Source: Pseudanabaena galeata CCNP1313 (lineage in GTDB: Bacteria > Cyanobacteriota > Cyanobacteriia > Pseudanabaenales > Pseudanabaenaceae). From it: a stretch of DNA of 64,000 nt. The stretch's first letter is position 1, and each line of letters begins with the position of its first letter. This document shows, piece by piece, positions 4,291 to 20,522 of this stretch. The DNA lies in the NCBI RefSeq assembly GCF_029910235.1, contig NZ_CP112874.1, positions 3,286,001 through 3,350,000 of the forward strand. The letters are read 5' to 3'. The translations under genes were made by a program, and so were the position numbers. Below the pieces are notes generated by a model that was not told the DNA's origin, did not search any database, and saw only the letters and a list, made by a program, of their open reading frames with translations.

Positions 4291-4373
4291 GGATTTACCC
4301 TCACCGAAACCTGTGCATGATTTATCCATTAAAACATAATCTCCCAAGCTCAGAAAGGCAGCGCAAGGCACGC

Positions 4374-4504
4374 CAGCAATTCTCATTATGAAACCGATTT
4401 TGGTATTTCCAGCGCCGAAGGCGCTGGAAATACCAAAATCGGTTTTTAGAAATCCCGCCGTTGGCGGGCTTTCCAAAAACCGATTTTTATAATGAGAATT
4501 GCTG
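4374..4504. mobile_element. 131-bp palindromic MITE-like element, copy 1
   Basis: Perfect 16-bp terminal inverted repeats CAGCAATTCTCATTAT / ATAATGAGAATTGCTG enclose two hairpins. The arm AAACCGATTTT occurs three times in alternating orientation, so the middle arm can pair with either neighbour. Hairpin cores are CCAGCGCC-GAA-GGCGCTGG and CCCGCC-GTT-GGCGGG. Flanking sequence gives a 9-bp direct repeat with one mismatch, aaggcacgc (4365-4373) and aaagcacgc (4505-4513), as expected for a target duplication. No coding capacity. Sister copies are at 12358-12488 and 20384-20522. Confidence 0.85.
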
Positions 4505-5208: not shown

Positions 5209-6474
5209 TTAGATTCCAAAAACTCTCTTAGCTCGAGACAGATAAGATCGGCGATCGGCTAACCCATTTGTGCCGCCGTTGATGATACGGGTAACAGTAA
5301 GGACATCATCGCGATCGGCATGATTATTAAGTTTGCGAGTATCCCAAAACCAACCTGCGCTTAGACAGGCTAGATCGAAATCCGCTAAACGTTGGGGATT
5401 ACTAATCAAATCCACACCCAATGCTCGACCACACTCAAGATAGTTGGCTCTTCCCGTAACTTGAATCAAGCCACGCCCCTTAAACCTCACACCGTCGCCA
5501 GCCTGAGTATTACCAAGATCTCTTCTTCCTTCGTAGGCTGCACCAGAGGCATATTCCTCGTTAGTGTTAAATCCATCGCTTTCATGTCCCAATTGAGCGA
5601 GGAAATGCGCTTTACGCAGAGGAGTCGTGATTGCGTAACGCTGCATTGTGTTATTCAAGTGAGGCAGTAGCTTCTCAAGGCGATCGCGTCGGGCATAGGG
5701 GGCGATCGCACTCAGTTGTGCTTGAGTAATCAAACCAGAAGTTGTAGCTAGACTAGTTGCGGTAGATCGGGGATATAAACCCTCATAAGGCTCTTGATCG
5801 AGACGACGTGGGGGCAGATTATTGAGAATCCGAATCGTGCTATCAACTAGTACATCCTTGGGGTTGAAATCATCTTTAAGTCCAGTAATCAATTGATCTA
5901 AGCGCCGCGCCGCTAATTTGCGATGCTCAGTCAGATTCGGTGCTTGGTAAAGTCCTTCATAGGGTTTTCGTAGGATGGGGCGCAAAGTTAAGCCACTCAT
6001 CACCCTAATCAAGTCATCAATGCGACCATCAGCACTATTATGTTTTGGATCGGTGATCCTACCGATCGCTGCTACTAAAGTCTGAGCTGCTTGTTTGCGC
6101 CATGTTGCCAAATCCGCCGCAGGGAAAAGTCCCGCATAGGGCGATCGCCCCGTTGGACGTGCGGGTAAATTACGTAAAAAACGGATCAAATCATCGATCG
6201 CCCCATCAAAAACGCTCCCTTCAACATCGGGAATCTTTGGCACGGAAGATTGAAGAGTTAACGCCGCCCGACTGCGCCATGTTGGTAAATCAGCCGCAGG
6301 CAAAATACCTGCATAGGGCTGTCGAGTTTCTGGACGTGCGGGTAAGTTGTTTAACACGCGCACTAGATCATCCACCAGCCCATCTTTATCATTGATCGTG
6401 CTGCCGACAATTTTGGGAACTAAAAAAGCAAGGGTTGCGGCTGCTTGCGATCGCCAAATCTCAACTTGTTTCAT
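5209..6474 (-). CDS. GH19 chitinase/lysozyme-like protein with four N-terminal repeats
   Basis: Protein of 421 residues. Residues 1-245 are four copies of a roughly 60-residue repeat with a W(R)xxAAxTL start, an IDDLIRxLxNLPxRP middle and a PYxGLxPA end. The C-terminal 170 residues are a glycoside hydrolase family 19 domain, with HFLAQLGHESDGF carrying the likely catalytic Glu298 and the family signature GRGLIQVTGRANY at 333-345. GH19 enzymes cleave chitin or, in many bacteria and phages, peptidoglycan. No signal peptide is visible, so export would need a phage-like or alternative route. The repeats may bind cell wall or assemble the protein; I do not recognise them. Confidence 0.85.
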   Translation of the reverse strand: MKQVEIWRSQAAATLAFLVPKIVGSTINDKDGLVDDLVRVLNNLPARPETRQPYAGILPAADLPTWRSRAALTLQSSVPKIPDVEGSVFDGAIDDLIRFLRNLPARPTGRSPYAGLFPAADLATWRKQAAQTLVAAIGRITDPKHNSADGRIDDLIRVMSGLTLRPILRKPYEGLYQAPNLTEHRKLAARRLDQLITGLKDDFNPKDVLVDSTIRILNNLPPRRLDQEPYEGLYPRSTATSLATTSGLITQAQLSAIAPYARRDRLEKLLPHLNNTMQRYAITTPLRKAHFLAQLGHESDGFNTNEEYASGAAYEGRRDLGNTQAGDGVRFKGRGLIQVTGRANYLECGRALGVDLISNPQRLADFDLACLSAGWFWDTRKLNNHADRDDVLTVTRIINGGTNGLADRRSYLSRAKRVFGI

Positions 6475-6511
6475 TGCCTTGATCGGGTAATTTCCACTTT
6501 GCGTAATACCA

Positions 6512-7456
6512 TCATCTTACGAAACGCCCAAAAATCAATTTGACGAAGAAGGGATAGCGGAAAAAGATTTTGCCTAATCCACTGACAATCCATTGGCGTA
6601 AACTAATGATCGCCACAGGCAAATATGGCTCCACCAAAGACTCAAGGGTAACGATGAAGCTATTTGCCCTTGCTTCGATAGGTATGGCAACTCTGATCGT
6701 AATCCAACAAAAAATTAAAATGATAACTACCGCGATCGCCACCAGCCGAAAAACTTGACTTTCTAGAAGACCGAGTAAATTTGTGAAAAATTTCTGGCTG
6801 GATTTTGGTAGCGATGGCAAGGTCAGATTTAGTTTGGAATAAATCCACCAAATCATTAAGACCACAATCGGAGCAGCGCTCGCCATCGCCCAACATTGAT
6901 TAGATAAATAAGCAGTTAAATCGGCTGAGAAACTAAATCTTTTCCCCAGATTTTGCAACGGATCACACCATGTGATTGTCGTTGTAAAAGATACAGTGGC
7001 GATCGCAAATGGTCGTAATTTTTGCTCAACATAATCAGAGATCGCTGTCAAAAGTTGCCGCGAAATTTGACCAACCACAAAACTATGAGTTGTTAAAATG
7101 CGATCGGCGCGAGGATGATACAAGATATCCTCACAAACCTTTTGACTAAGATCGCCATCTATATGTATCAAAGTTCGCAATATGGGTGAATCTGTCTCTG
7201 TTGTAGACAAATTACCCAAACTACCAATTTTATCTGTGTAATAAGTCCAAATGGCGATCGCCCCTTGTCGTTTGGCTGCCATTCCCACACTAGAGGCTAA
7301 TACTTTCAGTAAGTCTCGACTATTAACTCTATAAATAATCTCATTAGCATTGGCTAAATCCTGAGTATCCAGATAAATCTGGTCTATAACAGTGGGATTT
7401 AGCCACAAACTGATTTCGTCATCAATAATAGCCAACCAATCAGGCGTAGCCACCAT
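6512..7456 (-). CDS. Hypothetical membrane protein
   Basis: Protein of 314 residues that I cannot assign to a family. The first 170 residues are soluble in character, with a DTQDLANANEIIYRVNSRDL segment and no catalytic motif I can see. Two strongly hydrophobic segments follow (around ASAAPIVVLMIWWIYSKL and VAIAVVIILIFCWITI), and the C-terminus (LPVAIISLRQWIVSGLGKIF) may be a third membrane or amphipathic segment. It lies 37 bp upstream of the GH19 gene on the same strand, so the two may be co-transcribed. Confidence 0.6.
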   Translation of the reverse strand: MVATPDWLAIIDDEISLWLNPTVIDQIYLDTQDLANANEIIYRVNSRDLLKVLASSVGMAAKRQGAIAIWTYYTDKIGSLGNLSTTETDSPILRTLIHIDGDLSQKVCEDILYHPRADRILTTHSFVVGQISRQLLTAISDYVEQKLRPFAIATVSFTTTITWCDPLQNLGKRFSFSADLTAYLSNQCWAMASAAPIVVLMIWWIYSKLNLTLPSLPKSSQKFFTNLLGLLESQVFRLVAIAVVIILIFCWITIRVAIPIEARANSFIVTLESLVEPYLPVAIISLRQWIVSGLGKIFFRYPFFVKLIFGRFVR

Positions 7457-7468
7457 AATTATAAGTTA

Positions 7469-7656
7469 CCCAAATTTGCAAGGTTGCGCCACTTCGGGAC
7501 ACAACCTTGCGAACCCAAAATTGTAAAGTTGCGCCACTTCGGGACACAACCTTGCGAACCCAAATTGGTAAAGTTGCGTCTCTACGAAGCACAACCTTGC
7601 AAACCCAAATTGATAAAGTTGCGCCCCTGTGGGGCGCAACTTTATCAATTTGGGTT
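7469..7656. repeat. Four 45-bp tandem repeats ending in a hairpin
   Basis: Units begin at 7469, 7514, 7559 and 7604, each starting CCCAAA and containing AAGTTGCGCC or a close variant, then a loop, then CACAACCTTGCRAA. Units 1-3 are imperfect half-palindromes. The fourth closes a perfect hairpin, ATTGATAAAGTTGCGCCCC paired with its complement up to 7656. The array fills the intergenic space between the membrane-protein gene and the next minus-strand gene. A single hairpin of the same core occurs at 16265-16313. Confidence 0.85.
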
Positions 7657-7677
7657 CGCAATTAATTACGTTCATAA

Positions 7678-8526
7678 TTATTTTGCCCGAAACTGCATCA
7701 AGTCTTTGACTAGATTTACGCAAGTGAGGATCAATCCTGACCATTGTTTCTCAGCATTTTCGACCGCTTGATGATGCAAATCAAAAACTAACTTTGCCAT
7801 CTTGGGATCAATTTTGCTTCTAGCTGGCACAAACAAATCATCCAAAAATCGATTGGTCAAATCACCATCAAGTTCAAATCGAGTCTGAGCATAGACACGT
7901 TCACCATTCAAAATTGATTGTTCAAGCTCCCATAACTTTCGGAAGTAACGAATCATCGGCGCATCAGGAATTATTCGTCCTTCGGCATCCTTAGTAATAT
8001 CTAATTGCAATACCTTGTCCGCTAGTTCCTCATAATAAGCTTGTTCAATCTCAAATTGTTCCTTTTGCCTAGGCTCAGTCAAATTTTGACGATTGTTAAA
8101 AGATCGCTCTGCTCGTTTATAAATTTCTAAATCACGGTTGTATCGATCAAGCTCATTCTGAGAAGCTACCGATCCTTGCTTTTGAAGTTCTTTACTACGG
8201 TCAAGGAGAGATCTTCTGATGTCTTGCAGCCCCTCCTCTGTTTTGTACATGATGTTTTCAAGCAGATCAGAGTAAAACTGTCTTGCGTCAAATCTGGTGA
8301 TTGGAATGTGGCTAACAATCATGGTGTTGACTTCCAGCACCGTAATTTCTTCTAAAACATCTTTGATCGTTTCTCGAAATTTATTAAGGGTAGTACTTTC
8401 ACCAGCACCATCTTTTTTAGTCGGTATTGAGGGCTGAGTATTGTTAGCAAGTTTTACACGCCCCGATTTAATGCGAGTCGGTGCATTTTCGGCATTAACT
8501 TTGTTGTTTGTAGCCTGATCTTGCAT
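7678..8526 (-). CDS. Hypothetical protein, alpha-helical
   Basis: Protein of 282 residues, highly charged and predicted helical. The N-terminal 50 residues are low-complexity and basic, with many Asn, Lys and Thr. The middle has long Glu/Arg/Gln-rich stretches (RYNRDLEIYKRAERSFNNRQ) suggesting coiled coil. No membrane segment, signal peptide or known motif is visible. It is followed 40 bp away on the upstream side by another unknown gene on the same strand, and the pair are probably expressed together. Function unknown. Confidence 0.6.
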   Translation of the reverse strand: MQDQATNNKVNAENAPTRIKSGRVKLANNTQPSIPTKKDGAGESTTLNKFRETIKDVLEEITVLEVNTMIVSHIPITRFDARQFYSDLLENIMYKTEEGLQDIRRSLLDRSKELQKQGSVASQNELDRYNRDLEIYKRAERSFNNRQNLTEPRQKEQFEIEQAYYEELADKVLQLDITKDAEGRIIPDAPMIRYFRKLWELEQSILNGERVYAQTRFELDGDLTNRFLDDLFVPARSKIDPKMAKLVFDLHHQAVENAEKQWSGLILTCVNLVKDLMQFRAK

Positions 8527-8566
8527 ACAGATTCCCTTCGCGACAGGTCAAATAAATTAGACAGGA

Positions 8567-9007
8567 CTAGACTCGACTGAGAAAGCGATCGCTACTGAAA
8601 TCAACAGCATCTTCTGTCTCTGGCTCACTTTCACTAGTTAACAAACCTGTTAACTTTTGTCCAATATCGACGAGAGTTTTAAGATTATTAGCGATCGTTT
8701 CTGCACCCTTCTCCACTTGTACTTCATGGAAGCCCCGTAACTCTGCATAGGGCGAACCTTGCAAAAAGTCTGCTCCTAACTCATTTTCGATGTCACCATC
8801 AATCAGATTAATCGTTGTCCTCAAGCGATTACCCGCTCTATGGGTAGTATCACCTTCATGGGCTACCCAAGTCACAATTTCTAACTGCACAAGGTCAGAA
8901 AATATCTCTACCAAAGCATCACCGAAGTTTTTGTTTTCTTTGAGCTTGCTTTGAAAACGTACTGAAGCTGTAGCTGTGACTGATACCGAAGAACTTGCAT
9001 ACGTCAT
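8567..9007 (-). CDS. Hypothetical protein
   Basis: Protein of 146 residues. It begins with a Ser/Ala/Thr-rich strand-forming segment (SSSVSVTATASVRFQSKL) followed by a helical middle and an acidic C-terminus (ESEPETEDAVDF). No known motif. Codon use and the HIP1 sites inside it match the surrounding chromosome. The gene lies 40 bp upstream of the helical hypothetical protein and shares its strand. Confidence 0.6.
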   Translation of the reverse strand: MTYASSSVSVTATASVRFQSKLKENKNFGDALVEIFSDLVQLEIVTWVAHEGDTTHRAGNRLRTTINLIDGDIENELGADFLQGSPYAELRGFHEVQVEKGAETIANNLKTLVDIGQKLTGLLTSESEPETEDAVDFSSDRFLSRV

Positions 9008-9227
9008 AACTGATACCTAATAAGAATTTGAATAATTTCTGAGTCAAGTCAAATAGCTAGCTAAAATCTCAATCACTTAACAATAAACTTTATTCACAAT
9101 AGAGGTCTTTATAAATCGACATTTATAAAAAGTTATAAATATTCTATAATTTTTTTATAAATGTTTTATCAATTATTTTAAGCCAAAGTAACTTAGACCA
9201 CTTTAATTAAACAAGCATTCAATAAGT

Positions 9228-9491
9228 TTAATGATAATCAGATAGCTCAATTAATTCCATTGGCACAAAGCTTTCTTGTGGTAGCAAAATTAGTTGGGAG
9301 TAAATAAGTTTGCCAGTCATATCTATGCGGTTGATCGCTATTCCCATTGGACGTGGTAGCTGTGCTGCGTAGGAATCAGCATAGTAGCGATAAATCTGCT
9401 TAGCAGCTCTGATAATCATGGGATCGACTTTTTTGGCTACAGGTTCTGACTGTCGCTCTGGATATTCGAGGCGTTGGGCGGCATATGACAC
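9228..9491 (-). CDS. Small hypothetical protein
   Basis: Protein of 87 residues. The core reads IIRAAKQIYRYYADSYAAQLPRPMGIAINRIDMTGKLIYSQLILLP in character (positions about 26-72), a helix followed by two or three strands, compact enough to be a real domain. No known family. Flanking gaps of about 220 bp on one side and 150 bp on the other suggest it has its own promoter; the 9008-9227 gap is AT-rich with no repeat. Confidence 0.5.
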   Translation of the reverse strand: MSYAAQRLEYPERQSEPVAKKVDPMIIRAAKQIYRYYADSYAAQLPRPMGIAINRIDMTGKLIYSQLILLPQESFVPMELIELSDYH

Positions 9492-9645
9492 AATGAAAAC
9501 CCCTTAAATTTGACTATTCTTTTGCCTTATAAAAAGCTGCATCAGGACTTTAGCTGACTTTGTTTTTTTTAGCAAGATTTGAGCTTAGGATTATACATGA
9601 GTTGATATTTTTTGGGGGCAATCTGATCAAAAGTTAGTAAAAAAT

Positions 9646-10038
9646 TTAATTACCATCCACACTAGCTAATTTGATCCGAAACAACTTGCTGTAGAAGATT
9701 TGAGGGAAATCGACATAGCCCTTGTCACGAATATTTGAGACAACATCTATCAAATAGCCAACAAATTCTGAGTTTTCTAATGTCATTTCGTAGCTCATGT
9801 CAGCATCACCCTCAAAGGTCAAGCGACATAAGGCTAGATCCGATGGTAAGTTTGCCACGCGCCATACAGCCATAAAAGAAACGGCTGGACTTCCTTCGAT
9901 ATGTCGTTCACCCGTAATTTCGCCTTGTTTGTAAAGAGAAATAGCATAGGGGAGAGCTTGACGCTTGTTTGGCTCTCGATAATAGGGCATGTAGATGGAA
10001 ACTTCTTGTGGAGCAGCAGCTTTAAGTTCGATCGCCAT
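9646..10038 (-). CDS. ebsA: EbsA-like type IV pilus biogenesis protein
   Basis: Protein of 130 residues. The N-terminal AAPQEVSIYMPYY, the middle LPYAISLYKQGEITGERHIEG and VSFMAVWRVANLPSDLALCR, and the end GYLIDVVSNIRDKGYVDFPQIFYSKLFR resemble the cyanobacterial EbsA family as I remember it. EbsA was described in Synechococcus elongatus as needed for pilus assembly and biofilm self-suppression, acting with the PilB and Hfq homologues. The assignment rests on recalled family sequence, not on a search. Two pilin genes are in the same window but about 8 kb away. Confidence 0.6.
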   Translation of the reverse strand: MAIELKAAAPQEVSIYMPYYREPNKRQALPYAISLYKQGEITGERHIEGSPAVSFMAVWRVANLPSDLALCRLTFEGDADMSYEMTLENSEFVGYLIDVVSNIRDKGYVDFPQIFYSKLFRIKLASVDGN

Positions 10039-10106
10039 AGATATTGCGTCTCTATATGTAGGTAAAGGCGGAGATTTTTACAGAAAGATTAGCAGATTTT
10101 TTGTCT

Positions 10107-10141
10107 AAATTAGAGAGGACGCTTTGCTCCTTCTCTAATTT
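10107..10141. repeat. Intergenic hairpin
   Basis: AAATTAGAGAGGACGC and its approximate complement pair around a short TTT loop, with one or two mismatches. It lies between the EbsA-like gene and the terminator of the transporter gene. Confidence 0.5.
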
Positions 10142-10152
10142 AGCAGGATTGT

Positions 10153-10187
10153 AAAAACACAAAATGGCTAAGCCATTTTGTGTTTTG
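10153..10187 (-). terminator. Intrinsic terminator after the substrate-binding protein gene
   Basis: A perfect stem AAAACACAAAATGGC / GCCATTTTGTGTTTT with a TAA loop lies 4-6 bases past the stop codon of the minus-strand gene ending at 10191. A/T-rich flanks supply a U tract in either direction. Confidence 0.6.
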
Positions 10188-10190
10188 GGT

Positions 10191-11513
10191 TTAAGGTGAA
10201 ACGCGATCAATTACAGTGATTTTGCCGTCGGGTTGGACTTCCCATACGTCATAGCTGCCTTTAACATCGCCATATTCATCTAGATCTACATTGCCGCTTG
10301 CGCCTTGATAGTCAATGTCTGTGCCAGCTTTGACCAGCTTGATTGCTTCACAAACATCACTAACTTCTTGCCCAGGGGCATTGGCTACTTCACGGATTTT
10401 ACTCTTGATGCCATCACCAGTGCCATCTTTGGCAGCTTCGGCAGCGATCGCTATTAGAGCCGCCGCATCGTAGGAATGAGGTACAAAAGCACCTAAATCT
10501 TGACCTGTCTTTTCTTTGAAGCTTTTGGCAAATGTGTCAAGGGATTTTCCGTCAGCACCAGGAACTGTACCGATCGCACCTGCCAAAATTAATTTACCTT
10601 CAGGGGTATTACCAATTAACTTAGGAAAGTCTTCAGTCTTTACACCATCGGTAAGCAAAATCTTCACATCTTTGGTTAAGCCCTGTTCAAACGCAGCTTT
10701 AATTACCGCACCGCCAGAATCGGGATAGAGAATTGCGGCAACTGCATCAGGTTTAGTGCCAAAGGCTCCCTTAGCTTCAGCCTCAAAAGTCGCAGCCTTT
10801 GGATCGTAGCGAGTGGGGTTGATTTTGTTGACAATTGTGCCGCCGAGTTTTTCAAAGGCTTCGACAAAAGCTTTTTCAAAACCTACGCCATAGTCGTTGT
10901 TAATAACGAGGGTGGCAACTTTTCTTGCACCTTTTTTATAGGCAAGATTTGCTAGGGCTAAAGCTTGATAGGTATCAGGGGGAGCGGTGCGATACCAATA
11001 GCCATTAAATTCGCCTTTTTTGGCACGTTCGGTAAAGACAGGACTAGTGCTACCGGGGGAAATCATCACGACTTTGTTGGGAACCGCGATCGCTAGAGCC
11101 GCCGTAGAAACACTACTAGCAAATGCGCCAACCACCGCACCGACGTTATCAACTTTCACCAGTTTTGTCATGGCTTCAGCACCTGCGGGTGGATCGGTGC
11201 GATCGTCTTCCTTAAAGAAAGCGATCGGTTTGCCTAACACACCGCCACATTGATTAACGGTTTCGACCAGAAAATCAATGGATTTGATCATCGGTGCGCC
11301 AATTGATGACAGGTCACCTGTGGCAGGGAGAACTGCACCTAAACGGAGAGTATCTTTAACGCCGCCAGATCCTGAACTTGTTACGGGTGCTGTGGTATCC
11401 GCAGTGGGTTTAGAGTCTGTAACTGAAGTACTGGGCTGACAAGCCACAATCCAAATCGTTGTCACTGTTGCTAGCAAGGCTAGGCAGAGTGTAGAGAAAA
11501 ACCTTTTAGTCAT
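10191..11513 (-). CDS. ABC transporter substrate-binding lipoprotein (Leu/Ile/Val-binding type)
   Basis: Protein of 440 residues. A lipoprotein signal ends in the lipobox IVAC with Cys25, so the mature protein is anchored on the periplasmic side. After a Ser/Thr linker the type I periplasmic-binding fold begins with LRLGAVLPATGDLSSIGAPM, then GVLGKPIAFFKEDDRTDP, VGAVVGAFASSVSTAALAIA, and SYDAAALIAIAAEAA near the end. This is the family that binds branched-chain amino acids, amides or urea. No permease or ATPase gene is next to it, so it is an orphan component here. Its start lies 70 bp from the RNase III start on the opposite strand, giving a shared divergent promoter region. Confidence 0.9.
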   Translation of the reverse strand: MTKRFFSTLCLALLATVTTIWIVACQPSTSVTDSKPTADTTAPVTSSGSGGVKDTLRLGAVLPATGDLSSIGAPMIKSIDFLVETVNQCGGVLGKPIAFFKEDDRTDPPAGAEAMTKLVKVDNVGAVVGAFASSVSTAALAIAVPNKVVMISPGSTSPVFTERAKKGEFNGYWYRTAPPDTYQALALANLAYKKGARKVATLVINNDYGVGFEKAFVEAFEKLGGTIVNKINPTRYDPKAATFEAEAKGAFGTKPDAVAAILYPDSGGAVIKAAFEQGLTKDVKILLTDGVKTEDFPKLIGNTPEGKLILAGAIGTVPGADGKSLDTFAKSFKEKTGQDLGAFVPHSYDAAALIAIAAEAAKDGTGDGIKSKIREVANAPGQEVSDVCEAIKLVKAGTDIDYQGASGNVDLDEYGDVKGSYDVWEVQPDGKITVIDRVSP

Positions 11514-11583
11514 GGTTACGATGGACTACGATCATATTTACAAAGTTGCTGTAATTGTATCTGCAAAGTATCTGCCAAGTCTC

Positions 11584-12327
11584 ATGTCATCTACCATTGA
11601 TCCACGTCGTCAAAGAGAATTAGTCCGTTTATTAGAACAGATGGGACTAGAACAAGCAAAACTAGAGAAAATTAATCCAGCGATTAATCCTCAAGGTTTT
11701 GATTGGCTATTGATTGATCAATCTTTGGTACATCCCAGTTTTTCCAATACCTACAACAATGATCAGTTGGAGTTTGTAGGCGATAGTGTGCTGCGGTTGT
11801 CAGTGAGTTTGTTCTTGCAAGAAAGATATGGCGATCGCAAGGTGGGTGACTTAGCGGCTCTGCGATCGCATCTTGTCAGTGACAAAACCCTCGCCGAAAT
11901 CGCAGGGATTTACGATCTCCAAAAATATGTTGTGGTTTCTAATGCGGCTCGTAATGATTCGCAAGCTCTGCGATCGCTGCTAGCCGATGCCCTCGAAGCT
12001 TTAATGGCAGCCCTATACATTAATACTCAAGATTTAGCCTTCATCCGTAAATGGCTCGATCCGCATATGCAACGTTTTGCTGAGGCTTTGTTGGCAATTC
12101 CTGCACTGGGTAATTACAAGGTGGCGCTGCAAGAATTAACTCAAGGGCGCTGGAAACGTTTGCCTGAATATCGCAATGTTGACACAGCCGCTAACAATCC
12201 CAACAATCTCTTTTCTGTAGAAGTATGGTTTAACGATCGCTGCTGGGGTAAAGGACAGGGCAAAAGCATTAAAGCGGCTCAACAGGAGGCGGCGGCGATC
12301 GCATTACAACAAATGTCCCAGCTATGA
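11584..12327 (+). CDS. rnc: Ribonuclease III
   Basis: Double-strand-specific endoribonuclease that processes rRNA and other structured RNAs. I prefer the ATG at 11584 (247 residues). The upstream ATG at 11512 would overlap the divergent lipoprotein gene. The signature is at residues 60-69 (DQLEFVGDSVL), with further acidic residues in SLLADALEALMAALY (Asp135, Glu138). A double-stranded RNA-binding domain occupies about 177-247 and ends GKSIKAAQQEAAAIALQQM. Full length and all catalytic acids are present. Confidence 0.92.
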   Translation: MSSTIDPRRQRELVRLLEQMGLEQAKLEKINPAINPQGFDWLLIDQSLVHPSFSNTYNNDQLEFVGDSVLRLSVSLFLQERYGDRKVGDLAALRSHLVSDKTLAEIAGIYDLQKYVVVSNAARNDSQALRSLLADALEALMAALYINTQDLAFIRKWLDPHMQRFAEALLAIPALGNYKVALQELTQGRWKRLPEYRNVDTAANNPNNLFSVEVWFNDRCWGKGQGKSIKAAQQEAAAIALQQMSQL

Positions 12328-12330
12328 ACA

Positions 12331-12357
12331 AAATAGGGGCGCTTCGCGCCCCTATTT
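12331..12357 (+). terminator. Hairpin after rnc
   Basis: AAATAGGGGCGC-TTC-GCGCCCCTATTT begins a few bases after the rnc stop. The 131-bp element sits exactly at its right edge, and the CCCCTATTT of the right arm is duplicated on the far side of the element (12489-12497). Confidence 0.6.
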
Positions 12358-12488
12358 CAGCAATTCTCATTATGAAACCGATTTTGTTGTTTCCAGCGCC
12401 TTTGGCGCTGGAAACAACAAAATCGGTTTTTTGGAAGCCCGCCGACGGCGGGCTTCCAAAAAACCGATTTTTATAATGAGAATTGCTG
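12358..12488. mobile_element. 131-bp palindromic MITE-like element, copy 2
   Basis: Same length and same perfect 16-bp ends as the copy at 4374. The two internal hairpins are perfect here (second core GCCCGCCG-ACGGCGGGC). A 9-bp direct repeat cccctattt flanks it (12349-12357 and 12489-12497), the clearest target duplication of the family. The arm sequence between AAACCGATTTT and the core differs from copy 1 on both sides in a compensatory way. Confidence 0.88.
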
Positions 12489-12650
12489 CCCCTATTTTGT
12501 TTTTTTATTAAGATTTACGCATAGGTGTATAAATACTTAGCGTCAAATCGTAAATTTTTCTACAAATACAGGACAAGCGTCGTAATATTTCTTAGTGTGC
12601 TAATTCCGCTCGTTTGATCAATTTTTAAGATTAGTGCTTCGTGTGGTAAG

Positions 12651-12656
12651 AAGGAG
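12651..12656 (+). promoter_or_regulatory. Shine-Dalgarno AAGGAG that points to an unusual start
   Basis: AAGGAG at 12651-12656 is the only good ribosome binding site before the GT2 gene. Nine bases downstream in frame is ATT at 12666, followed by CTG at 12669. The first conventional start (GTG 12705) is 48 bases away from it. Confidence 0.4.
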
Positions 12657-12704
12657 TCAAGAGTCATTCTGATACTAATATCGATCCTAGCCGCCCTAAA
12701 TGCT

Positions 12705-14324
12705 GTGGCAGCAATGTGGCTATTACTTTATGGGCTAAATGCTTATTGGCTCACTGCTGTCCATAGGCCTAAGCTTTCTCTACGGAAAAAACTTGTTTTT
12801 CCGCAGCTTAATCCTGCGCGAGAATACCAAGTTGCTCAAGCCGCAACATCATCACCCAGTTCAGGTGCGATCGCTGTCAATAATTTTGATAACTTTCGCC
12901 TCGACAAACCTCTAACCAATAGCTTTCCTAGTTATGTTTTGGCAGTTGAGCCGCCTGAGCATCAAGCGATCGCCTTAGAAGATTTACCAATTGTCACCAT
13001 CCAATTACCAATTTTTAATGAGCGCTATGTTTCTCGCCGATTGGTAGATGCAGTTTGTCAGATGGACTACCCACGCGATCGAATGCAGATTCAAGTACTT
13101 GACGACTCCATTGACGACACGCAGGCGATTCTCAGCGAAACTGTCCAAGAATACCAAAATCAGGGCTTTTGGATTGAATATGTCCATCGCATTAATCGGG
13201 CTGGCTTCAAAGCAGGCGCTTTGCAAGATGCAATGCCCCTCGTTCAGGGCAATTACATTGCTATTTTTGATGCTGATTTCATTCCCTCAGCGAACTGGCT
13301 CAAGGATACTATTCGCCATTATGTAGAGAATCCTGATGCTAAGGTTGCCGTTGTCCAAACCCGTTGGGGCCATATCAATTCTGAATATTCGTTACTTACC
13401 AAGTTGCAATCGACTGGGATTGACGGACATTTTGCGATCGAGCAGCAGGCTCGATCGCAAAATGGCTATTTTCTAAACTTCAATGGGACTGCGGGTATTT
13501 GGAATCGGCAGGCGATTATTGATGCTGGTGGTTGGCACGCTGATACTTTAGCCGAAGATATGGACTTAAGTTATCGCGCTCAACTTAAGGGCTGGCAAGT
13601 GGTTTATGACAATAATATTGTCGCGCCTGCGGAGTTACCTGTTGCTATGCTAGCCTTCAAATTGCAGCAATTTCGCTGGGCTAAGGGCAGCATTCAATGT
13701 GCAAAGAAGTTAATTGCTCAAATCTGGAAAGCCGATCTGAGTCTGGCTGTAAAATTCCAAGCCACCATGCATTTGACGGGATATTCGGCACATCCTTTAA
13801 TGCTTCTCTTGGTTTTGCTCTCAATTCCCTTGATGTTGCTTATGCCTGATCAGGCGATCGCCATGCGGATTTCCTTTGAGAGCATTTGGTCAGTCTTTAT
13901 GCTACCTGCCACCTTTGGTCCCCCATTTTTGTATTTCCATGCCCAGCGTGAGTTGTATCCTAAGTCTTGGCAGCGCCGCCTTGGTCGGATTTTCCTATTA
14001 GCGGTTCTCGGTACGGGTATTTCTTGGAGCAATAGCCGTGCGGTATTTGCGGGCTTATCAAATACAGGGGCAAATTTTCGCCGTACACCCAAGTTTGATA
14101 TCAAACATAAGAGCGATCGCTGGGAAAATAAGGCTTATAAGATTCCCCTTGATGCCACCGCCGCTATTGAAATATGCCTATGTATTTACAGTGCGATCGC
14201 TGCCATGTTAGCTCTTAGTAAAGGACTATATGTAACTTTGCCCTTCATGGTCTTATATGCGTTGAGCTATGGCTATGTCGGCGGACTTACCCTCTGGCAA
14301 TCTTGGCAACAATCCCGTCACTAA
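12705..14324 (+). CDS. Processive GT2 glycosyltransferase (cellulose-synthase-like membrane enzyme)
   Basis: Membrane glycosyltransferase of 539 residues from GTG 12705. The frame is open further upstream, and a strong Shine-Dalgarno fits an ATT start at 12666 that would complete a first membrane helix (LISILAALNAVAAMWLLLYGL). GT2 motifs in order are VTIQLPIFNE, LDDSIDDT, DADF, TWAEDMDLSYR-like LAEDMDLSYRAQ, and QQFRWAKGS (the QxxRW motif). At least four hydrophobic segments follow. This arrangement fits beta-glucan, mannan or glucosylceramide-type synthases. The product cannot be told. A strong terminator follows directly, so it is probably monocistronic. Confidence 0.85.
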   Translation: MAAMWLLLYGLNAYWLTAVHRPKLSLRKKLVFPQLNPAREYQVAQAATSSPSSGAIAVNNFDNFRLDKPLTNSFPSYVLAVEPPEHQAIALEDLPIVTIQLPIFNERYVSRRLVDAVCQMDYPRDRMQIQVLDDSIDDTQAILSETVQEYQNQGFWIEYVHRINRAGFKAGALQDAMPLVQGNYIAIFDADFIPSANWLKDTIRHYVENPDAKVAVVQTRWGHINSEYSLLTKLQSTGIDGHFAIEQQARSQNGYFLNFNGTAGIWNRQAIIDAGGWHADTLAEDMDLSYRAQLKGWQVVYDNNIVAPAELPVAMLAFKLQQFRWAKGSIQCAKKLIAQIWKADLSLAVKFQATMHLTGYSAHPLMLLLVLLSIPLMLLMPDQAIAMRISFESIWSVFMLPATFGPPFLYFHAQRELYPKSWQRRLGRIFLLAVLGTGISWSNSRAVFAGLSNTGANFRRTPKFDIKHKSDRWENKAYKIPLDATAAIEICLCIYSAIAAMLALSKGLYVTLPFMVLYALSYGYVGGLTLWQSWQQSRH

Positions 14325-14360
14325 AATAAAAGGGTGCTAAAGCACCCTTTTATTTTTATT
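14323..14360 (+). terminator. Intrinsic terminator of the GT2 gene
   Basis: AAAATAAAAGGGTGCT-AA-AGCACCCTTTTATTTTT begins at the stop codon, with a GC core and T-rich tail. Confidence 0.85.
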
Positions 14361-14392
14361 GTTTTCCTACTAAAAATTGCTGCTTGTAATTA

Positions 14393-14425
14393 AAAAGTAG
14401 AGGACGCTAAGCGTCCTCTACTTTT
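14393..14425. repeat. Hairpin directly upstream of the second GT2 gene
   Basis: AAAAGTAGAGGACGC-TAA-GCGTCCTCTACTTTT is a perfect 15-bp stem ending 3 bases before the ATG at 14429. It would occlude the ribosome binding site region if the mRNA starts upstream. Confidence 0.65.
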
Positions 14426-14428
14426 ATA

Positions 14429-15349
14429 ATGGTCACTATGTGGTCAATTGTTATCCCAACTTATAACCGCTTACCAATCTTGCAAAAATGTTTGCAAGCG
14501 ATGGAAGCACAAAATTTTACCCAACCCTATGAGATTGTAGTGGTTGATGATGGCTCCACCGATGGCACGGTGGAATTTTTGCAAAGTCATGCTGATGAAT
14601 TTCCTCACGTTCGTTTATTTCTGCAAAACCATGAAGGGGCGGCGATCGCCAGAAATACGGGCATAGATCTAGCACAGGGTGACACCATCGTATTTATTGA
14701 TAGCGATCTTGTCGTTACGCCAGTATTTTTGTCAGCCCATGCTAAGGCTCTGGCAAAAGCTTCTAAAATTGGCGATCGCGCCTTTACCTATGGGCTGGTG
14801 ATTAATACCAGCAATTTTGAAAATCCTTCTTCGGAGCCACTGAAAATCACTGATATTTCTCAAGCTTTTTTTGCGACGGGGAATGTGGCGATCGCTAAGC
14901 ATTGGTTAATTGAGGCAGGGAAGTTTGACACTAGCTTCCGTCAGTATGGTTGGGAAGATTTAGAGCTAGGTGTGCGCCTCAAAAAATTGGGCTTAAAACT
15001 AATTAAATGTCCTGAAGCCGTTGGTTATCATTGGCATCCCGCCTTTACGATTGAGCAATTACCACGCCTTGTTGATGTCGAAGCTCAACGTGGACGCATG
15101 GGTGTTGTCTTTTATCAAAAGCATCCGACATGGGAAGTCAAATTGATGATCCAGATGACGTGGCTGCATGTACTTTTGTGGGGAACATTGTCTTTGGGTG
15201 GATTGCTAAATGAGCGATCGCTTCGTCCGCTTTTAAAATGGCTAATTGATCAAGGTAAACCCCAATTAGCCCTAGAAATAGCTAGAATTTTCTTGAATTG
15301 GTACAACGTCAAGGGCGTATACGCCGCTTATCGCGAATCCATTAATTAA
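14429..15349 (+). CDS. Glycosyltransferase family 2 protein
   Basis: Soluble-type GT-A glycosyltransferase of 306 residues. The N-terminus is WSIVIPTYNRLPILQKCLQA, the nucleotide-binding DDGSTDGTVEFL follows, then IVFIDSDLVV with the DxD-like motif, and FRQYGWEDLELGVRLKKLG with the ED acceptor-binding motif of the galactosyltransferase C-terminal subfamily. No membrane helix is obvious. ATG 14429 and ATG 14438 are both possible starts. It transfers a sugar from a nucleotide donor, probably in cell-surface polysaccharide synthesis, judging by the family and the neighbouring processive GT2. Confidence 0.88.
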   Translation: MVTMWSIVIPTYNRLPILQKCLQAMEAQNFTQPYEIVVVDDGSTDGTVEFLQSHADEFPHVRLFLQNHEGAAIARNTGIDLAQGDTIVFIDSDLVVTPVFLSAHAKALAKASKIGDRAFTYGLVINTSNFENPSSEPLKITDISQAFFATGNVAIAKHWLIEAGKFDTSFRQYGWEDLELGVRLKKLGLKLIKCPEAVGYHWHPAFTIEQLPRLVDVEAQRGRMGVVFYQKHPTWEVKLMIQMTWLHVLLWGTLSLGGLLNERSLRPLLKWLIDQGKPQLALEIARIFLNWYNVKGVYAAYRESIN

Positions 15350-15379
15350 AAAAGATACAAAGTATCTTTTTTAATTAAC
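15345..15379 (+). terminator. AT-rich hairpin terminator
   Basis: TTAATTAAAAAAGATAC-AAA-GTATCTTTTTTAATTAA overlaps the stop codon of the GT2 gene and lies just before the next Uma2 gene. Confidence 0.6.
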
Positions 15380-15395
15380 TAGCTGAGATATCAAA

Positions 15396-15989
15396 ATGCT
15401 ACAAACCAAACCTAAAACCCAACCTGAAATTAGAATTGAGCAGCCCTTAATCACATGGGAACAGTTCAAGCTGATTCAACGCGGTTTTGCTGATGCTAGA
15501 GGAATTCGGCTAGCCTATTACGAGGGAATTTTAGAGATTGTGTCTACGTCAGTCGATCATGAGCTAATTAAAACGATTATTGGCGCATTGTTGGAATTGT
15601 ATTTTTTGGAAAAGGAAATTGAGTTTTTCCCAATGGGGCAAGCAAATCAAGAAAAAGCTGAACAGGTATCTTTGCAGCCCGATGAGTCCTATAGCTTTGG
15701 TAGTCCCAAAAAAATTCCCGATCTCGCCATTGAAGTAATTTTGACTAGCGGCAATACTGAGAAATTGAAGAAATATTATTTGCTTGGAGTCCCTGAAGTT
15801 TGGTTATGGGAGGATGGAGTGCTTGATATTTATCACCTAGATACTCAAAGAGATCGCCAATATTGCAAATCAACTACTAGCAAATTTTTACCAAACCTCG
15901 ACATGGCAACATTGCAACGTTGTATTTTATTTACATCACCACTTGAAGCCCTGAAAACTTTTAGACAGGCTTTTCGGCAAAGTCTATGA
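15396..15989 (+). CDS. Uma2 family endonuclease
   Basis: Protein of 197 residues of the shorter Uma2 subgroup. It starts with ITWEQFKLIQRGFADARGIRLAYYEGILEI in character. The nuclease motifs are KKIPDLAIEVILTSGNTEKL (Asp and Glu, then a downstream Lys) and GVPEVWLWEDGVLDIY. The same subgroup recurs at 59740-60312, which shares the WEQFK start and the VVTSG and PEVWFWQDG motifs. Its stop overlaps the start of a zinc-ribbon gene by 4 bp, so the two are translationally coupled. Confidence 0.88.
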   Translation: MLQTKPKTQPEIRIEQPLITWEQFKLIQRGFADARGIRLAYYEGILEIVSTSVDHELIKTIIGALLELYFLEKEIEFFPMGQANQEKAEQVSLQPDESYSFGSPKKIPDLAIEVILTSGNTEKLKKYYLLGVPEVWLWEDGVLDIYHLDTQRDRQYCKSTTSKFLPNLDMATLQRCILFTSPLEALKTFRQAFRQSL

Positions 15990-16189
15990 AAGTTTCCTTA
16001 GAATTCCTCTACCATTTTCATTGCGATCGCTGTCGTAAATGGTGGAGCCGTGCGGACATTGAGCCACAAATTGGTGAGCAGGTTTACTGCCCCTATTGTG
16101 GGCACATTAATACAGTGGAAGCAGTGCAAACTTTTCGGAATGCAGCACGCGGAGGCAGTTGTCTTAGTCAACGTCCTGACGAAATTTAG
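15986..16189 (+). CDS. Small zinc-ribbon protein
   Basis: Protein of 67 residues with two CxxC knuckles, CDRCRKWW near residue 13 and CPYCGH near residue 36, spaced as in a zinc ribbon. The rest is polar and ends in SCLSQRPDEI. It overlaps the preceding Uma2 stop by 4 bp (ATGA). Cyanobacterial genomes carry similar short zinc-ribbon proteins of unknown role; binding of nucleic acid or protein is a reasonable guess only. Confidence 0.7.
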   Translation: MKVSLEFLYHFHCDRCRKWWSRADIEPQIGEQVYCPYCGHINTVEAVQTFRNAARGGSCLSQRPDEI

Positions 16190-16264
16190 TACTTTGCGCT
16201 TTAAAGTAAAGAGGTCGCTTTGCGTCCTTTCTACTTTGATCAGTAATTGTGCAAAATAAATTAT

Positions 16265-16313
16265 CAAAACCCATAAAGTTGCGCCCCTACGGGGCGCAAC
16301 TTTATGGGTTTTG
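16265..16313. repeat. Intergenic hairpin, TTGCGCCCC core
   Basis: CAAAACCCATAAAGTTGCGC and its complement form a perfect stem of about 23 bp. The AAAGTTGCGCCCC core is the same as in the last unit of the 45-bp array at 7604-7656. Confidence 0.75.
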
Positions 16314-16330
16314 GATTAGTAATTAATTAA

Positions 16331-16439
16331 CGTCAGTTCGACGAAAGCGAAAAATGGTAAGAATCGCTAAGCGATTCTTACCATTTTTCGCCATTTGCGG
16401 CGTGCTTCGCACGCCGCAAATGGCTATATCGAACTCACG
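16331..16439. mobile_element. 109-bp MITE with the ends of the IS982-family element
   Basis: The left end CGTCAGTTCGACGAA matches the left end of the IS at 47421 (CGTGAGTTCGACGAA, one mismatch). The right end, read inward, CGTGAGTTCGAT, matches the right end of that IS. Inside are two perfect hairpins, AAAAATGGTAAGAATCGC / GCGATTCTTACCATTTTT and CCATTTGCGGCGTGC / GCACGCCGCAAATGG. TTAATTAA lies at both sides, but as it is itself palindromic it is weak evidence for a target duplication. Likely moved in trans by an IS982-type transposase. Confidence 0.75.
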
Positions 16440-16469
16440 TTTAATTAAGCTTATATACTTAGTAAATAT

Positions 16470-17144
16470 ATGAATACTCCAAATATAATTCTGGCGGGAT
16501 ATCTTGCGGGAGCTACCGATTACATCCCGATCGCCAAAAAATTACAAAGTAAAAACTTATCGGCAACAGTCGTCCCTTTGAAATGGACGGACTGGATTCC
16601 AACGGTGGGCGGACGCTCGATCGCGCCAATTTTAGAAAAGCTTGACCAAACCGTAAATCAAGAATTAGAAAAATCAGGTGCATCGAAAGTAAATATCATT
16701 GCCCATTCCGCAGGGGGCTGGCTCTCACGCATTTATCTAGGCGATCGCCCCTATTACGACAAGGTTTGGAATGCGCGTTCTAAGGTTGCCAAACTGGTTT
16801 GTCTGGGAACTCCTCAACGAAGCCTCGAACCTTGGTCACTGCCAAATTTAGGTTTTGTCAATGACAATTATCCTGATGCTTTTTATGATGATATTGAATA
16901 TATCTGTGTGGCGGGAAATGCGGTGCAGGGCAAAAAATATACACCAAAACAATGGCTTGCCTATAGTAGCTACGAACTCACGATTGGGCAAGGCGATGTC
17001 TGGGGCGATGGCATAATTCCGATTGAGGCGGCTTATTTGGATGGAGCGAAGAATATGGCGATCGATGGTGTTTATCATTCGCCGCGATCGGGTAAATGGT
17101 ATGGCTCTCAAGAGGTGGTTGATATCTGGGCAGAGTATCTATAG
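16470..17144 (+). CDS. Alpha/beta hydrolase, lipase-like
   Basis: Protein of 224 residues. The nucleophile elbow is IIAHSAGGWLSRIYLG, the GHSxGG-type motif of lipases and PGAP1-like hydrolases, with Ser as nucleophile. A later GDGIIPIEAAYLDGA segment supplies a likely Asp, and VYHSPRSGKWY a likely His, so the triad order Ser-Asp-His is complete. No signal peptide, so probably cytoplasmic. Substrate unknown. It lies alone after the 109-bp element. Confidence 0.8.
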   Translation: MNTPNIILAGYLAGATDYIPIAKKLQSKNLSATVVPLKWTDWIPTVGGRSIAPILEKLDQTVNQELEKSGASKVNIIAHSAGGWLSRIYLGDRPYYDKVWNARSKVAKLVCLGTPQRSLEPWSLPNLGFVNDNYPDAFYDDIEYICVAGNAVQGKKYTPKQWLAYSSYELTIGQGDVWGDGIIPIEAAYLDGAKNMAIDGVYHSPRSGKWYGSQEVVDIWAEYL

Positions 17145-17250
17145 ATTTTGATATTTTGCTTTGAGGCGATCGCCTCTCTAATCTCTAAGCAAGTAAGGGG
17201 CGATCGCCAGCAAGTAAAATAAAGTAAGCAGTTATTCTAAGTTTACAATT

Positions 17251-17502
17251 ATGACTTTCACCGAGTTATTGCCGAATCTGCAAAAACTAAACTCTTCCGA
17301 TAAGCTTAGGGTTATCCAATTTCTGGCGACTGAATTATCAAAGACAGAAAATTTTGCTGATAATGATATAGAGTCTAAATCTTGGTTAGAAGCAGATTTG
17401 GTCGATGACTTGCCTGAGTATAACTGGGGAGAAGGTGGGATACCAAGTATGAAGCCTGTGAAATATGTTTCTGGTGTTGGTCTAGGGATAAAGGCGGGAT
17501 AG
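17251..17502 (+). CDS. Putative antitoxin upstream of a MazF-type toxin
   Basis: Protein of 83 residues, acidic. The first half is a helix-rich segment (TELLPNLQKLNSSDKLRVIQ) and the second half has DDLPEYNWGEGGIP. It ends 5 bp before the toxin frame. Small acidic genes in this position with this start are common antitoxins of MazF/PemK toxins in cyanobacteria. No DNA-binding motif is evident. Assignment is by position and size. Confidence 0.65.
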   Translation: MTFTELLPNLQKLNSSDKLRVIQFLATELSKTENFADNDIESKSWLEADLVDDLPEYNWGEGGIPSMKPVKYVSGVGLGIKAG

Positions 17503-17507
17503 AGATT

Positions 17508-17873
17508 TTGAATGGTCAGCTTCTCAAATGTGGTGATGTTGTTTTTGTTAATCTGCCGTCTCAAAATCTTAAAGGACATGAACAGGAAGGAAGAAGACCT
17601 GCTGTAATTGTTGGTGTACCGTTGGAAAATGTACGTTATCCTGTGGTGGTGGTAGTCCCATTAACTACTCAGTTCGGCGGCTGGGTAGATAGAAATTCTG
17701 CACTGTATCCAATTATTCAAGCTGGAACTGCGGGATTACCTCAGAAATCAGTTGCCTTGTGCGATCAAATAAGGGCGGTGGATATCCAGAGAGTAATTGG
17801 ATATTTGGGTAGCCTAAGTTTTGATCAATATTTGCCAATTATTGGTGGAGTAAGACGGGTTTTGGATTTGTAA
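17508..17873 (+). CDS. MazF/PemK-family endoribonuclease toxin
   Basis: Protein of 121 residues starting from TTG at 17508. An ATG at 17512 is out of frame. The PemK-type SH3-like fold is visible: GDVVFVNLP at the start, then GRRPAVIVGVP, YPVVVVVPLTT, and QKSVALCDQIRAVDIQRVIGYLG. These toxins cleave single-stranded mRNA and are held inactive by the antitoxin, here the gene immediately upstream. Full length for the family. Confidence 0.88.
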   Translation: MNGQLLKCGDVVFVNLPSQNLKGHEQEGRRPAVIVGVPLENVRYPVVVVVPLTTQFGGWVDRNSALYPIIQAGTAGLPQKSVALCDQIRAVDIQRVIGYLGSLSFDQYLPIIGGVRRVLDL

Positions 17874-17981
17874 TAATTTATAAGGCGATCGCCCGTTTAA
17901 TCTCTGTGAAAGTAAAGGGCGATCGCATATGAGCAAAGAGGAAATCTCATCCAATATTCTGGTAAATTTTTTTTTACAATC

Positions 17982-18020
17982 TTTAATATGATAATATTTA
18001 TAAAAAATTATCATATTAAA
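17982..18020 (+). promoter_or_regulatory. 14-bp inverted repeat in front of a zinc-ribbon gene
   Basis: TTTAATATGATAAT (17982-17995) and ATTATCATATTAAA (18007-18020) are perfect complements around an 11-base AT loop, ending 3 bases before the ATG at 18024. This is AT-only with no GC core, unlike the mobile palindromes, so an operator or a start-occluding mRNA hairpin is more likely. Confidence 0.5.
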
Positions 18021-18023
18021 TCT

Positions 18024-18689
18024 ATGGCGATTGTTTCATGTCCCGAATGTGGTAGACAGGTTTCCGACAAAGCTCTCAAATGTCCACAGTGCGCTCATCC
18101 TATTGCAAATCCTGAAACCAGAGATCAATTATTACCGCCTAAGCCCTTACAAAAAGAGCCTGAAAGTGTTGCGGCGATAATGCAAGAGTGGTCAACGCAA
18201 AAGTGGCTAAAACTATTAGGGATATCTGTAGCAGGAACAATCGTTTTTATAACTTCAAGCGTGCTTTTGGGGAAAGGAATAGAAGCAAGTAGAGAGGCAA
18301 GTAGAAAGAAGGAATTAATAGAGGAACAGAAGCAGTTAAAAGAAGAAGTAAGTAAACCAACTTATTCAGTCAATCCTTCAACCAACAGCCCATCAACTCG
18401 TAGTCCAGAATATCTTTTAGCTGGTATAGATAAACAGTCTAAGGATGTATCAGCAAGTGAATTAGCACCATATACACAAGCATTAGATCAACTAGAGTCT
18501 AAGTGCCAAGAGTCTCGCATGGCATTAGCAGATATGTCTGCCGCAACTAAGGAGATATTGACAAAAAAAGGTGCTAAAGCAACTAACCTTGAACTTCTAA
18601 ACGGTGTATATCAGGCTGTTCAATCATATGCAACCCCTCAAAAATGTGCAGCAGGGTTTGCTTTGTTTGCAACGTATGTTGATAAGTAA
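18024..18689 (+). CDS. Zinc-ribbon protein with one membrane segment
   Basis: Start placed at ATG 18024 (221 residues), since the upstream 36 bases are the inverted repeat. The N-terminus is a zinc ribbon, VSCPECGRQVSDKALKCPQC, with two CPxC knuckles. A transmembrane helix follows at about 70-90 (LGISVAGTIVFITSSVLLG), then a charged linker and a Ser/Thr/Pro-rich spacer. The C-terminal domain of about 85 residues has two cysteines and no known motif. This is the usual layout of zinc-ribbon single-pass proteins in bacteria. Function unknown. Confidence 0.7.
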   Translation: MAIVSCPECGRQVSDKALKCPQCAHPIANPETRDQLLPPKPLQKEPESVAAIMQEWSTQKWLKLLGISVAGTIVFITSSVLLGKGIEASREASRKKELIEEQKQLKEEVSKPTYSVNPSTNSPSTRSPEYLLAGIDKQSKDVSASELAPYTQALDQLESKCQESRMALADMSAATKEILTKKGAKATNLELLNGVYQAVQSYATPQKCAAGFALFATYVDK

Positions 18690-18718
18690 GATTTAGCGAG
18701 TGATCTATCTCACAAGAA

Positions 18719-18750
18719 AAGCAACCTTATCTAATTGGTTAAGGTTGCTT
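18719..18750 (+). terminator. Hairpin after the zinc-ribbon gene
   Basis: AAGCAACCTTA / TAAGGTTGCTT, 11-bp stem with a 10-base loop, 29 bases after the stop codon. Confidence 0.65.
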
Positions 18751-18761
18751 ATGTTTAAGAA

Positions 18762-18908: not shown

Positions 18909-18922
18909 ATCTTGCGTAAGTC

Positions 18923-19210: not shown

Positions 19211-19280
19211 AAATAAGTTGAATATTTTGGTTTAAACTTTCACTTTAATGATAGATAGTTTATCTTGCAACTTAGTATAT

Positions 19281-19429: not shown

Positions 19430-19541
19430 TTATGGGATGAATAGGCGATCGGCTTGTGATGTGATTATTTGAGAGGCGATCTACCTATAATAACAACTAT
19501 ATAACCTCTATAATAGGTAAATAATCTCAGGCTTAAAACCT

Positions 19542-20328: not shown

Positions 20329-20339
20329 TTACTGTTAAT

Positions 20340-20383: not shown

Positions 20384-20522
20384 GCAAAATACTCATTATA
20401 AAAATAGGTTTTTTGAAAGCCCGCCGTTGGCGGGCTTTCAAAAAACCTATTTTGGTGTTTCCAGTGCCTTCGGCGCTGGAAACACCAAAATAGGTTTCAT
20501 AATGAGAATTGCTGTATTTTGC
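20384..20522. mobile_element. 131-bp MITE-like element, copy 3 (inverted, left end altered)
   Basis: The right end ATAATGAGAATTGCTG (20499-20514) is intact. On the left only CTCATTAT (20392-20399) is kept, with GCAAAATA in place of the outer eight bases. The three alternating arms read AAACCTATTTT instead of AAACCGATTTT in all three places. Outside the right end lies TATTTTGC, the complement of the odd left end. Confidence 0.8.

Follow-up and report, generated by a model that had tools for sequence, protein, structure and literature searches.

The window, which is the whole 64,000-nucleotide stretch of Pseudanabaena galeata DNA analysed here, contains three copies of a 131-bp element (Table 1). 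In the consensus of this MITE, the ends occupy columns 1-16 and 116-131, hairpin 1 is formed by columns 18-43 paired with 72-47 around a loop at 44-46, and hairpin 2 is formed by columns 62-86 paired with 114-90 around a loop at 87-89, with arm 2 (62-72) common to both hairpins. The arm AAACCGATTTT is found as arm 1 and arm 3 in the copies of the window, and its reverse complement as arm 2. A preliminary description of this DNA had proposed three arms in alternating orientation and two alternative folds; the sequence bears this out, and the predicted consensus fold energies are nearly equal (-62.9 kcal/mol with arm 2 paired to arm 1 vs -62.1 kcal/mol with arm 2 paired to arm 3, DNA parameters).

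Table 1. Coordinates of the MITE copies in the window and of their parts.
Feature	Position	Strand	Remarks
Left target duplication, copy 1	4365..4373	.	AAGGCACGC
MITE copy 1	4374..4504	+	131 bp; perfect 16-bp terminal inverted repeats at both ends
Right target duplication, copy 1	4505-4513		AAAGCACGC; agrees with left at 8/9
Left 9-bp target duplication, copy 2	12349..12357	.	CCCCTATTT; single 9-bp target in empty sites
MITE copy 2	12358..12488	+	131 bp; both ends perfect
Arm 1, copy 2	12375..12385	+	Columns 18-28; alignment to consensus
Loop of hairpin 1, copy 2	12401..12403	+	TTT; commonest forms in the family TTC and its reverse complement GAA
Arm 2, copy 2	12419..12429	+	Columns 62-72; reverse complement of arms 1 and 3, pairs with either
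Loop of hairpin 2, copy 2	12444..12446	+	GAC; commonest forms in the family AAC and its reverse complement GTT
Arm 3, copy 2	12461..12471	+	Columns 104-114; alignment to consensus
Right 9-bp target duplication, copy 2	12489..12497	.	CCCCTATTT; exact match to left
MITE copy 3	20384..20514	-	Reversed relative to copies 1 and 2; perfect at 20514 but degraded at 20384; no duplication recognised

The preliminary description had also given 16-bp ends to all three copies and a 9-bp target duplication to the element. The ends hold on both sides of copies 1 and 2 and on one side of copy 3; the duplication is exact in copy 2, nearly so in copy 1, and unrecognisable in copy 3. A change from CGAT to CTAT in all three arms of copy 3 can be read directly from the sequence, as had been claimed, and copy 3 is alone in this state among 212 copies from three genomes, with one further copy carrying the change in arms 1 and 2 only. 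The two-sided difference next to the core between copies 1 and 2 was likewise recovered, as two stem pairs that each differ on both sides (columns 30/60 and 32/58).

The target of copy 2 appears by eye to be the 3' arm of a terminator-like hairpin (12331-12357), the loop of which is AAA in the empty site of the sister genome G018 and TTC here. Copy 3 sits just after another terminator-like hairpin (20340-20379; by eye), and a second dispersed repeat with several matches in related genomes lies beside it (20586-20782).

Family and mobility

A covariance model places the MITE at 96 positions in the 5.84-Mb genome when the best orientation is taken, some of them partial and a few overlapping; these derive from 133 matches counted on both strands, with 150 of 4082 candidates scored. 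Exact 16-bp ends were found 51 times in the genome, as compared with 0 for a reversed-pattern control, and 16 of 26 genomes of the genus (this one counted) match the MITE at E<=1e-20. The sister genomes G009 and G018 lack the element at the site of copy 2, their flanks joining on a single 9-bp target. Copy 3 is absent from both genomes along with the neighbouring repeat at 20586-20782, as judged from the gap between flank matches (43 and 41 bases instead of 446). The element is a non-autonomous MITE: at 131 bp it is too short for a transposase gene, it is dispersed, and it has target duplications and an empty site.

Paired and three-arm changes among copies

Copies from G009 and G018 were collected from sequence matches at E<=1e-14 together with others in the same loci. 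After alignment to the consensus, copies with at most 4 gap or insert positions and at most 35 differences were kept, which left 162 of 212 (69/100 from P. galeata, 29/35 from G009, and 64/77 from G018), the others being dropped before counting. The sample holds one genome per species, with drafts as partner genomes, and the copies share ancestry.

Complementary double changes in the stems of the 69 P. galeata copies were 5- to 6-fold above the expectation of a column shuffle. Paired changes numbered 42 between arms 1 and 2 (7.6 expected), 36 between arms 2 and 3 (7.1 expected), 74 in the inner stem of hairpin 1 (11.9 expected), and 39 in the inner stem of hairpin 2 (6.7 expected), while one-sided stem changes were still frequent, at 42-67 cells per class. 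The distant terminal repeats, taken as a control, showed little coupling of changes, with 9 paired changes vs 8.6 expected and 243 one-sided changes in P. galeata, and a weak paired excess in G009 (7 vs 2.6 expected) and G018 (6 vs 4.3 expected).

The preliminary description had looked to genome-wide copies for concerted change of the arms, with independent changes as the pattern that would speak against it. Concerted change is what the 162 copies contain: 44 arm-column cells carry a change common to all three arms, as compared with 1.3 expected from the shuffle. These cells are copies and not independent events, and the allele 21 C>A makes up 13 of the 44; 13 different changes occur within the class. 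Changes in arms 1 and 2 only were found in 34 cells (8.8 expected), in arms 2 and 3 only in 18 (9.4 expected), and in arms 1 and 3 without arm 2 in 3 (8.9 expected). The direct contrast of 34 and 18 with 3 is firmer than the comparison with the shuffle, the expectation of which is overstated for the two-arm classes because the letters of three-arm copies are redistributed as well. Single-arm changes amounted to 29 cells for arm 1, 16 for arm 2, and 50 for arm 3, with 7 mixed and 1549 unchanged cells; arm 3 has the most single changes and is therefore taken to be the arm corrected least.

By genome, the cells with changes in arms 1 and 2, arms 2 and 3, and arms 1 and 3 numbered 16, 13, and 1 in P. 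galeata, 4, 4, and 0 in G009, and 14, 1, and 2 in G018. In G018 alone, the single cell for arms 2 and 3 (2.3 expected) and the two for arms 1 and 3 (2.4 expected) do not exceed the shuffle, and thus the two-arm contrast comes mainly from the P. galeata genome. The two-arm states of G018 support copying between arms 1 and 2, not between arms 2 and 3.

Being direct repeats, arms 1 and 3 are unable to pair with one another, which fits stepwise copying through hairpin pairing with arm 2. As two-arm states including arm 2 are common and those without it rare, a single three-way event is unnecessary and was set aside; changes seem to travel between paired arms, by way of the middle one.

Loop inversion at shared insertions

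Matching of both flanks gave 30 ortholog pairs, of which 24 had both copies past the filter and 20 agreed in their duplication bases (<=5/18 bases different), representing 14 sites; copies 1, 2, and 3 of the window had no partner among these both-flank pairs. With one pair taken per site, 13 of the 28 loops were exactly inverted, 8 were unchanged, and 7 were otherwise changed. As a control, exact inversion of 3-bp flank windows with >=2 differences was seen in 5 of 13,721. At the shared insertions, divergence was 4.8% in the flanks, 7.4% in the terminal repeats, about 8% in the stems, and 59.5% in the loops. Since 13 of the 21 loops that were either unchanged or inverted had been inverted, loop orientation is near random at 4.8% flank divergence. 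Exact loop inversion is the clearest trace of the process, and the preliminary description had made no mention of it.

In the pair G018_L365 and own_L234 (P. galeata), the flanks are 99.4% identical. Both loops are inverted (AAA/TTT and TAC/GTA), and a stem mismatch, 84A.92C in one, appears as 84G.92T in the other, which is what an inversion of the hairpin centre in situ would produce. Arms also differ at the same insertion: three-arm differences were found at three shared sites, between L295 and L327 and between L313 and both L334 and L160 (columns 21/69/107), and between L350 and L012 (columns 23/67/109).

Hairpins outside the MITE

Hairpins with no match to the MITE model were compared in a 178-kb alignment of the P. 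galeata and G018 genomes at 6.6% divergence, with twelve hairpins containing gaps and one with a palindromic loop set aside. Inversion depended on close geometry. Among hairpins with stems of >=15 bp and loops of 3-4 bases, 13 of 44 loops were exactly inverted, with 13 the same, 9 otherwise changed, 5 inverted with one change, and 4 ambiguous; with loops of 5-8 bases the same stems gave 0/3. Stems of 10-14 bp gave 1/11 for loops of 3-4 bases and 0/3 for loops of 5-8, and stems of 8-9 bp gave 0/14 and 0/9, respectively (0/23 together). With ambiguous cases left out, long and short stems with loops of 3-4 bases differed at 13/40 vs 0/14 (p = 0.013). The control of all 3-bp windows in the hairpin alignments had 45 inversions in 203,322, and in the smaller comparison with G009, 2 of 7 hairpins outside the MITE with long stems and loops of 3-4 bases were inverted.

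The stems of these long hairpins also carry paired changes, in 15 of 900 pairs with 60 one-sided changes, as compared with 22 of 377 pairs and 13 one-sided changes in MITE stems; an offset flank control had 5 double and 186 single changes in 1446. The process apparently acts beyond the MITE, as a host process on other long-stem, short-loop hairpins of the genome. Copying encoded by the element or linked to its transposition is unnecessary, as hairpins outside the MITE model show the same traces.

Mechanism and alternatives

The changes in the arms of the MITE and the flips of its loops are, in our view, probably explained by template switching between hairpin arms at replication. The MITE would have been moved by the transposase of an insertion sequence, likely of the DDE type and annotated ISNCY in one record, of which only a remnant is found in the P. 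galeata genome. After insertion, its hairpins would form where the DNA is single-stranded, most probably at the replication fork, with the polymerase switching template between the two arms of one hairpin. One arm would then be copied from the other, turning a point mutation into a complementary change in both, and a switch across the loop would leave the loop inverted. Arm 2, which can pair with arm 1 or arm 3, could relay a change in two steps to all three arms. The preliminary description had called for conversion inside the element or, alternatively, for a copying mechanism acting on a folded single strand; this inference is supported, with three amendments: a single three-way event is unnecessary, the process is not confined to the element, and there is no sign of single-strand transposition.

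Recombination or cruciform processing between the arms could invert a loop and convert arms without replication, and such cruciform inversion or arm recombination would leave traces similar to those of template switching. At L365/L234, at least columns 84-92 have been inverted along with the mismatch, as in a true inversion, and long stems with short loops favour a process of this kind. However, many corrected pairs and the stepwise states shared by arms 1 and 2 or by arms 2 and 3 fit the copying of one arm at least equally well. We regard this alternative as possible but doubtful, and we infer that the step is instead a template switch during replication.

It is unlikely that conversion between dispersed copies, with recombination exchanging their interiors, delivered the paired and three-arm changes ready-made. 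The 20 ortholog pairs, which overlap in part, hold 42 paired differences: alleles common in the family account for 24 of them, rare alleles for 15, and private alleles for 3. The three-arm change of L327 uses a common allele, and 9 of 212 copies have a TAC or GTA loop, which makes these loops uncommon but not private. Given the 24 common alleles and these 9 copies, conversion from another copy is possible for some of the differences. Against it stand the hairpins outside the MITE model, which flip too (counted without regard to copy number), and the joint flip of loop and stem mismatch at L365/L234 within nearly identical flanks. Moreover, the three-arm allele of copy 3 is present in all three arms of no other copy, and L290 and L159 keep a common terminal-repeat mutation while the interior changes.

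Selection on RNA or DNA structure, in which a harmful one-sided mutation is compensated by a second mutation, would account for stable folds and for stems that mostly stay paired despite sequence variation, yet it does not predict exact loop inversion, and the stems diverge more than the flanks. The G.T and A.C mismatches in the stems are also balanced (120 vs 131), and therefore indicate no tolerance of G.U on one strand. No Rfam match was found in window positions 3000-22000. On the absent G.U bias and the lack of an Rfam match in 3000-22000, selection on RNA structure was rejected, and structural selection in general is very improbable.

That assemblers chose the orientation of hairpin loops at random is hardly credible: the compared genomes are drafts (about 260 contigs for G009 and 90 for G018), but the inversions occur at stems of 14-18 bp, below the usual assembly k-mers, an artefact cannot produce paired base changes, and the P. 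galeata genome is in 6 contigs. It is also most unlikely that the concerted arms are only old variants inherited in subfamilies and spread by transposition, as the prevalence of 21 C>A in three-arm cells might suggest; the number of different three-arm changes and the two-arm states speak against this, the first origin of a three-arm state would be left unexplained, and arms differ at the same insertion across sister species, so that inherited subfamilies alone are insufficient.

Relation to known systems

Quasipalindrome correction and template switching at inverted repeats have reportedly been treated in an E. coli study, and small inversions at hairpins in plastid DNA are said to have been described by Kelchner and Wendel in 1996. 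Such small hairpin inversions are a known nuisance in plastids. In yeast, template switching at inverted repeats combines homogenisation of arms with reversible inversion of the spacer, which is described only where the arms exceed 9 bp (PMC8604942), and a template-switch mechanism has been put forward for the hairpins of RNA genes (PMC8794818). In plastid trnH-psbA, loops flanked by inverted repeats have flipped many times, including within species (PMC2903610).

The MITE resembles template switching at inverted repeats in its arm homogenisation, exact spacer inversion, dependence on stem length, and multi-base changes. It differs from the known template-switch cases in being mobile, in its three mutually complementary arms with a relay through the middle arm, and in having loop orientations that, in a cyanobacterium, are already close to equilibrium at about 5% divergence. 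The small inversions of plastid trnH-psbA are the closest natural parallel to the loop flips, although the MITE resides in dispersed copies in a free-living bacterium, and arm homogenisation is measured here along with inversion. Like other bacterial MITEs, including the cyanobacterial Nezha, the element is short and non-coding, with terminal inverted repeats, target duplications, and a high copy number; unlike them it has three interchangeable arms, Nezha being compared by general MITE features only. Titles and the openings of abstracts listed by searches of one open-access library revealed no description of template switching for bacterial MITEs or for Pseudanabaena. Template switching at inverted repeats is known; the three-arm relay is new, as is the apparently high rate for a cyanobacterium living freely.

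Matching changes on the two sides of a stem are commonly accepted as proof that an RNA structure is under selection. In this case the paired changes accompany loop inversions, both in a mobile element and in hairpins outside it, with no sign of RNA selection, and therefore covariation alone can mislead. The three-arm design offers an internal control, as the two arms in direct repeat seldom agree unless the complementary arm agrees as well, and it allows template switching to be measured from the genome sequence of a free-living organism related to plastids. If template switching is indeed responsible, the MITE copies are a built-in record of it, in which arm 2 links two arms that do not pair. 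We lean slightly towards the wider view that hairpin DNA in the genus is rewritten faster than point mutation proceeds, with two-state loops equilibrating genome-wide by about 5% divergence and the MITE acting as a relay that records template switching.

Partner insertion sequences and spread of the ends

The preliminary description had suggested looking for a transposase gene with the same ends and 9-bp duplications. Full-length insertion sequences with ends the same or nearly the same as those of the MITE were found in the genus and in other cyanobacteria; these partners are autonomous and 1.4-1.9 kb long. L384 (1418 bp) has 16-bp ends identical to those of the MITE and an exact 9-bp duplication, GAGATTTAT, and L196 and L198 have exact 9-bp duplications with ends one base off. 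L383 has a 10-bp rather than a 9-bp duplication, and none was seen around the insertion sequence in L067, L195, and L385. Against PF01609 (cut-off 23), L198 scored 24.1 bits, and L384, L195, and L067 scored 17.7-21 bits. From these sequences, the ends and duplications of the MITE appear to be those of insertion sequences with a putative DDE-type transposase. As they are of insertion-sequence type, nothing points to single-strand transposition. IS200-type (HUH) single-strand transposons are not known to have terminal inverted repeats or target duplications, and the terminal repeats and 9-bp duplications of the MITE speak against this identity.

A relative of L384, L196, and L198 in Gloeothece verrucosa has ends CAGCAATTCTCATT(A/T)T, like the MITE, and its transposase (WP_013335080.1) is labelled 'ISNCY family' by the record annotation alone; by eye, this insertion sequence and the MITE have only about the first 20 bp in common. 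A Fischerella transposase query matched 12 of 26 genomes of the genus (P. galeata counted), with 21 places in one. Its single match in the P. galeata genome covers 45 residues in a stop-containing frame, and this remnant (G000:C1:2280578-2280712) lies about 0.2 kb from a degraded MITE copy.

The exact 16-bp end occurs in at least 119 stretches of a wider DNA collection. As about 120 hits are expected by chance in its 257 billion bases, single end matches are uninformative and only loci with two ends were counted. Among the matches listed, 45 of 119 had both ends, 60-420 bp apart with <=2 mismatches each, and 16 of these were flanked by an exact 9-bp duplication; two ends in the wrong order, the control, were seen in 1 of 119. 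The two-ended loci include Verrucomicrobia, Methylococcaceae, and others, with interiors that seem unrelated by eye, and one transposase group may drive many MITE families. In Geobacteraceae, a 374-bp element with MITE ends (L124:1404-1777) seems by eye to contain a fragment of the related transposase, and may thus represent a stage between an insertion sequence and a MITE. Genes for group II intron reverse transcriptases, or pieces of them, directly adjoin the related transposase at L197:2763-3405, where the assignment is annotated, and at L384:1976-3016 and L067:5207-5605, where it was made by eye only.
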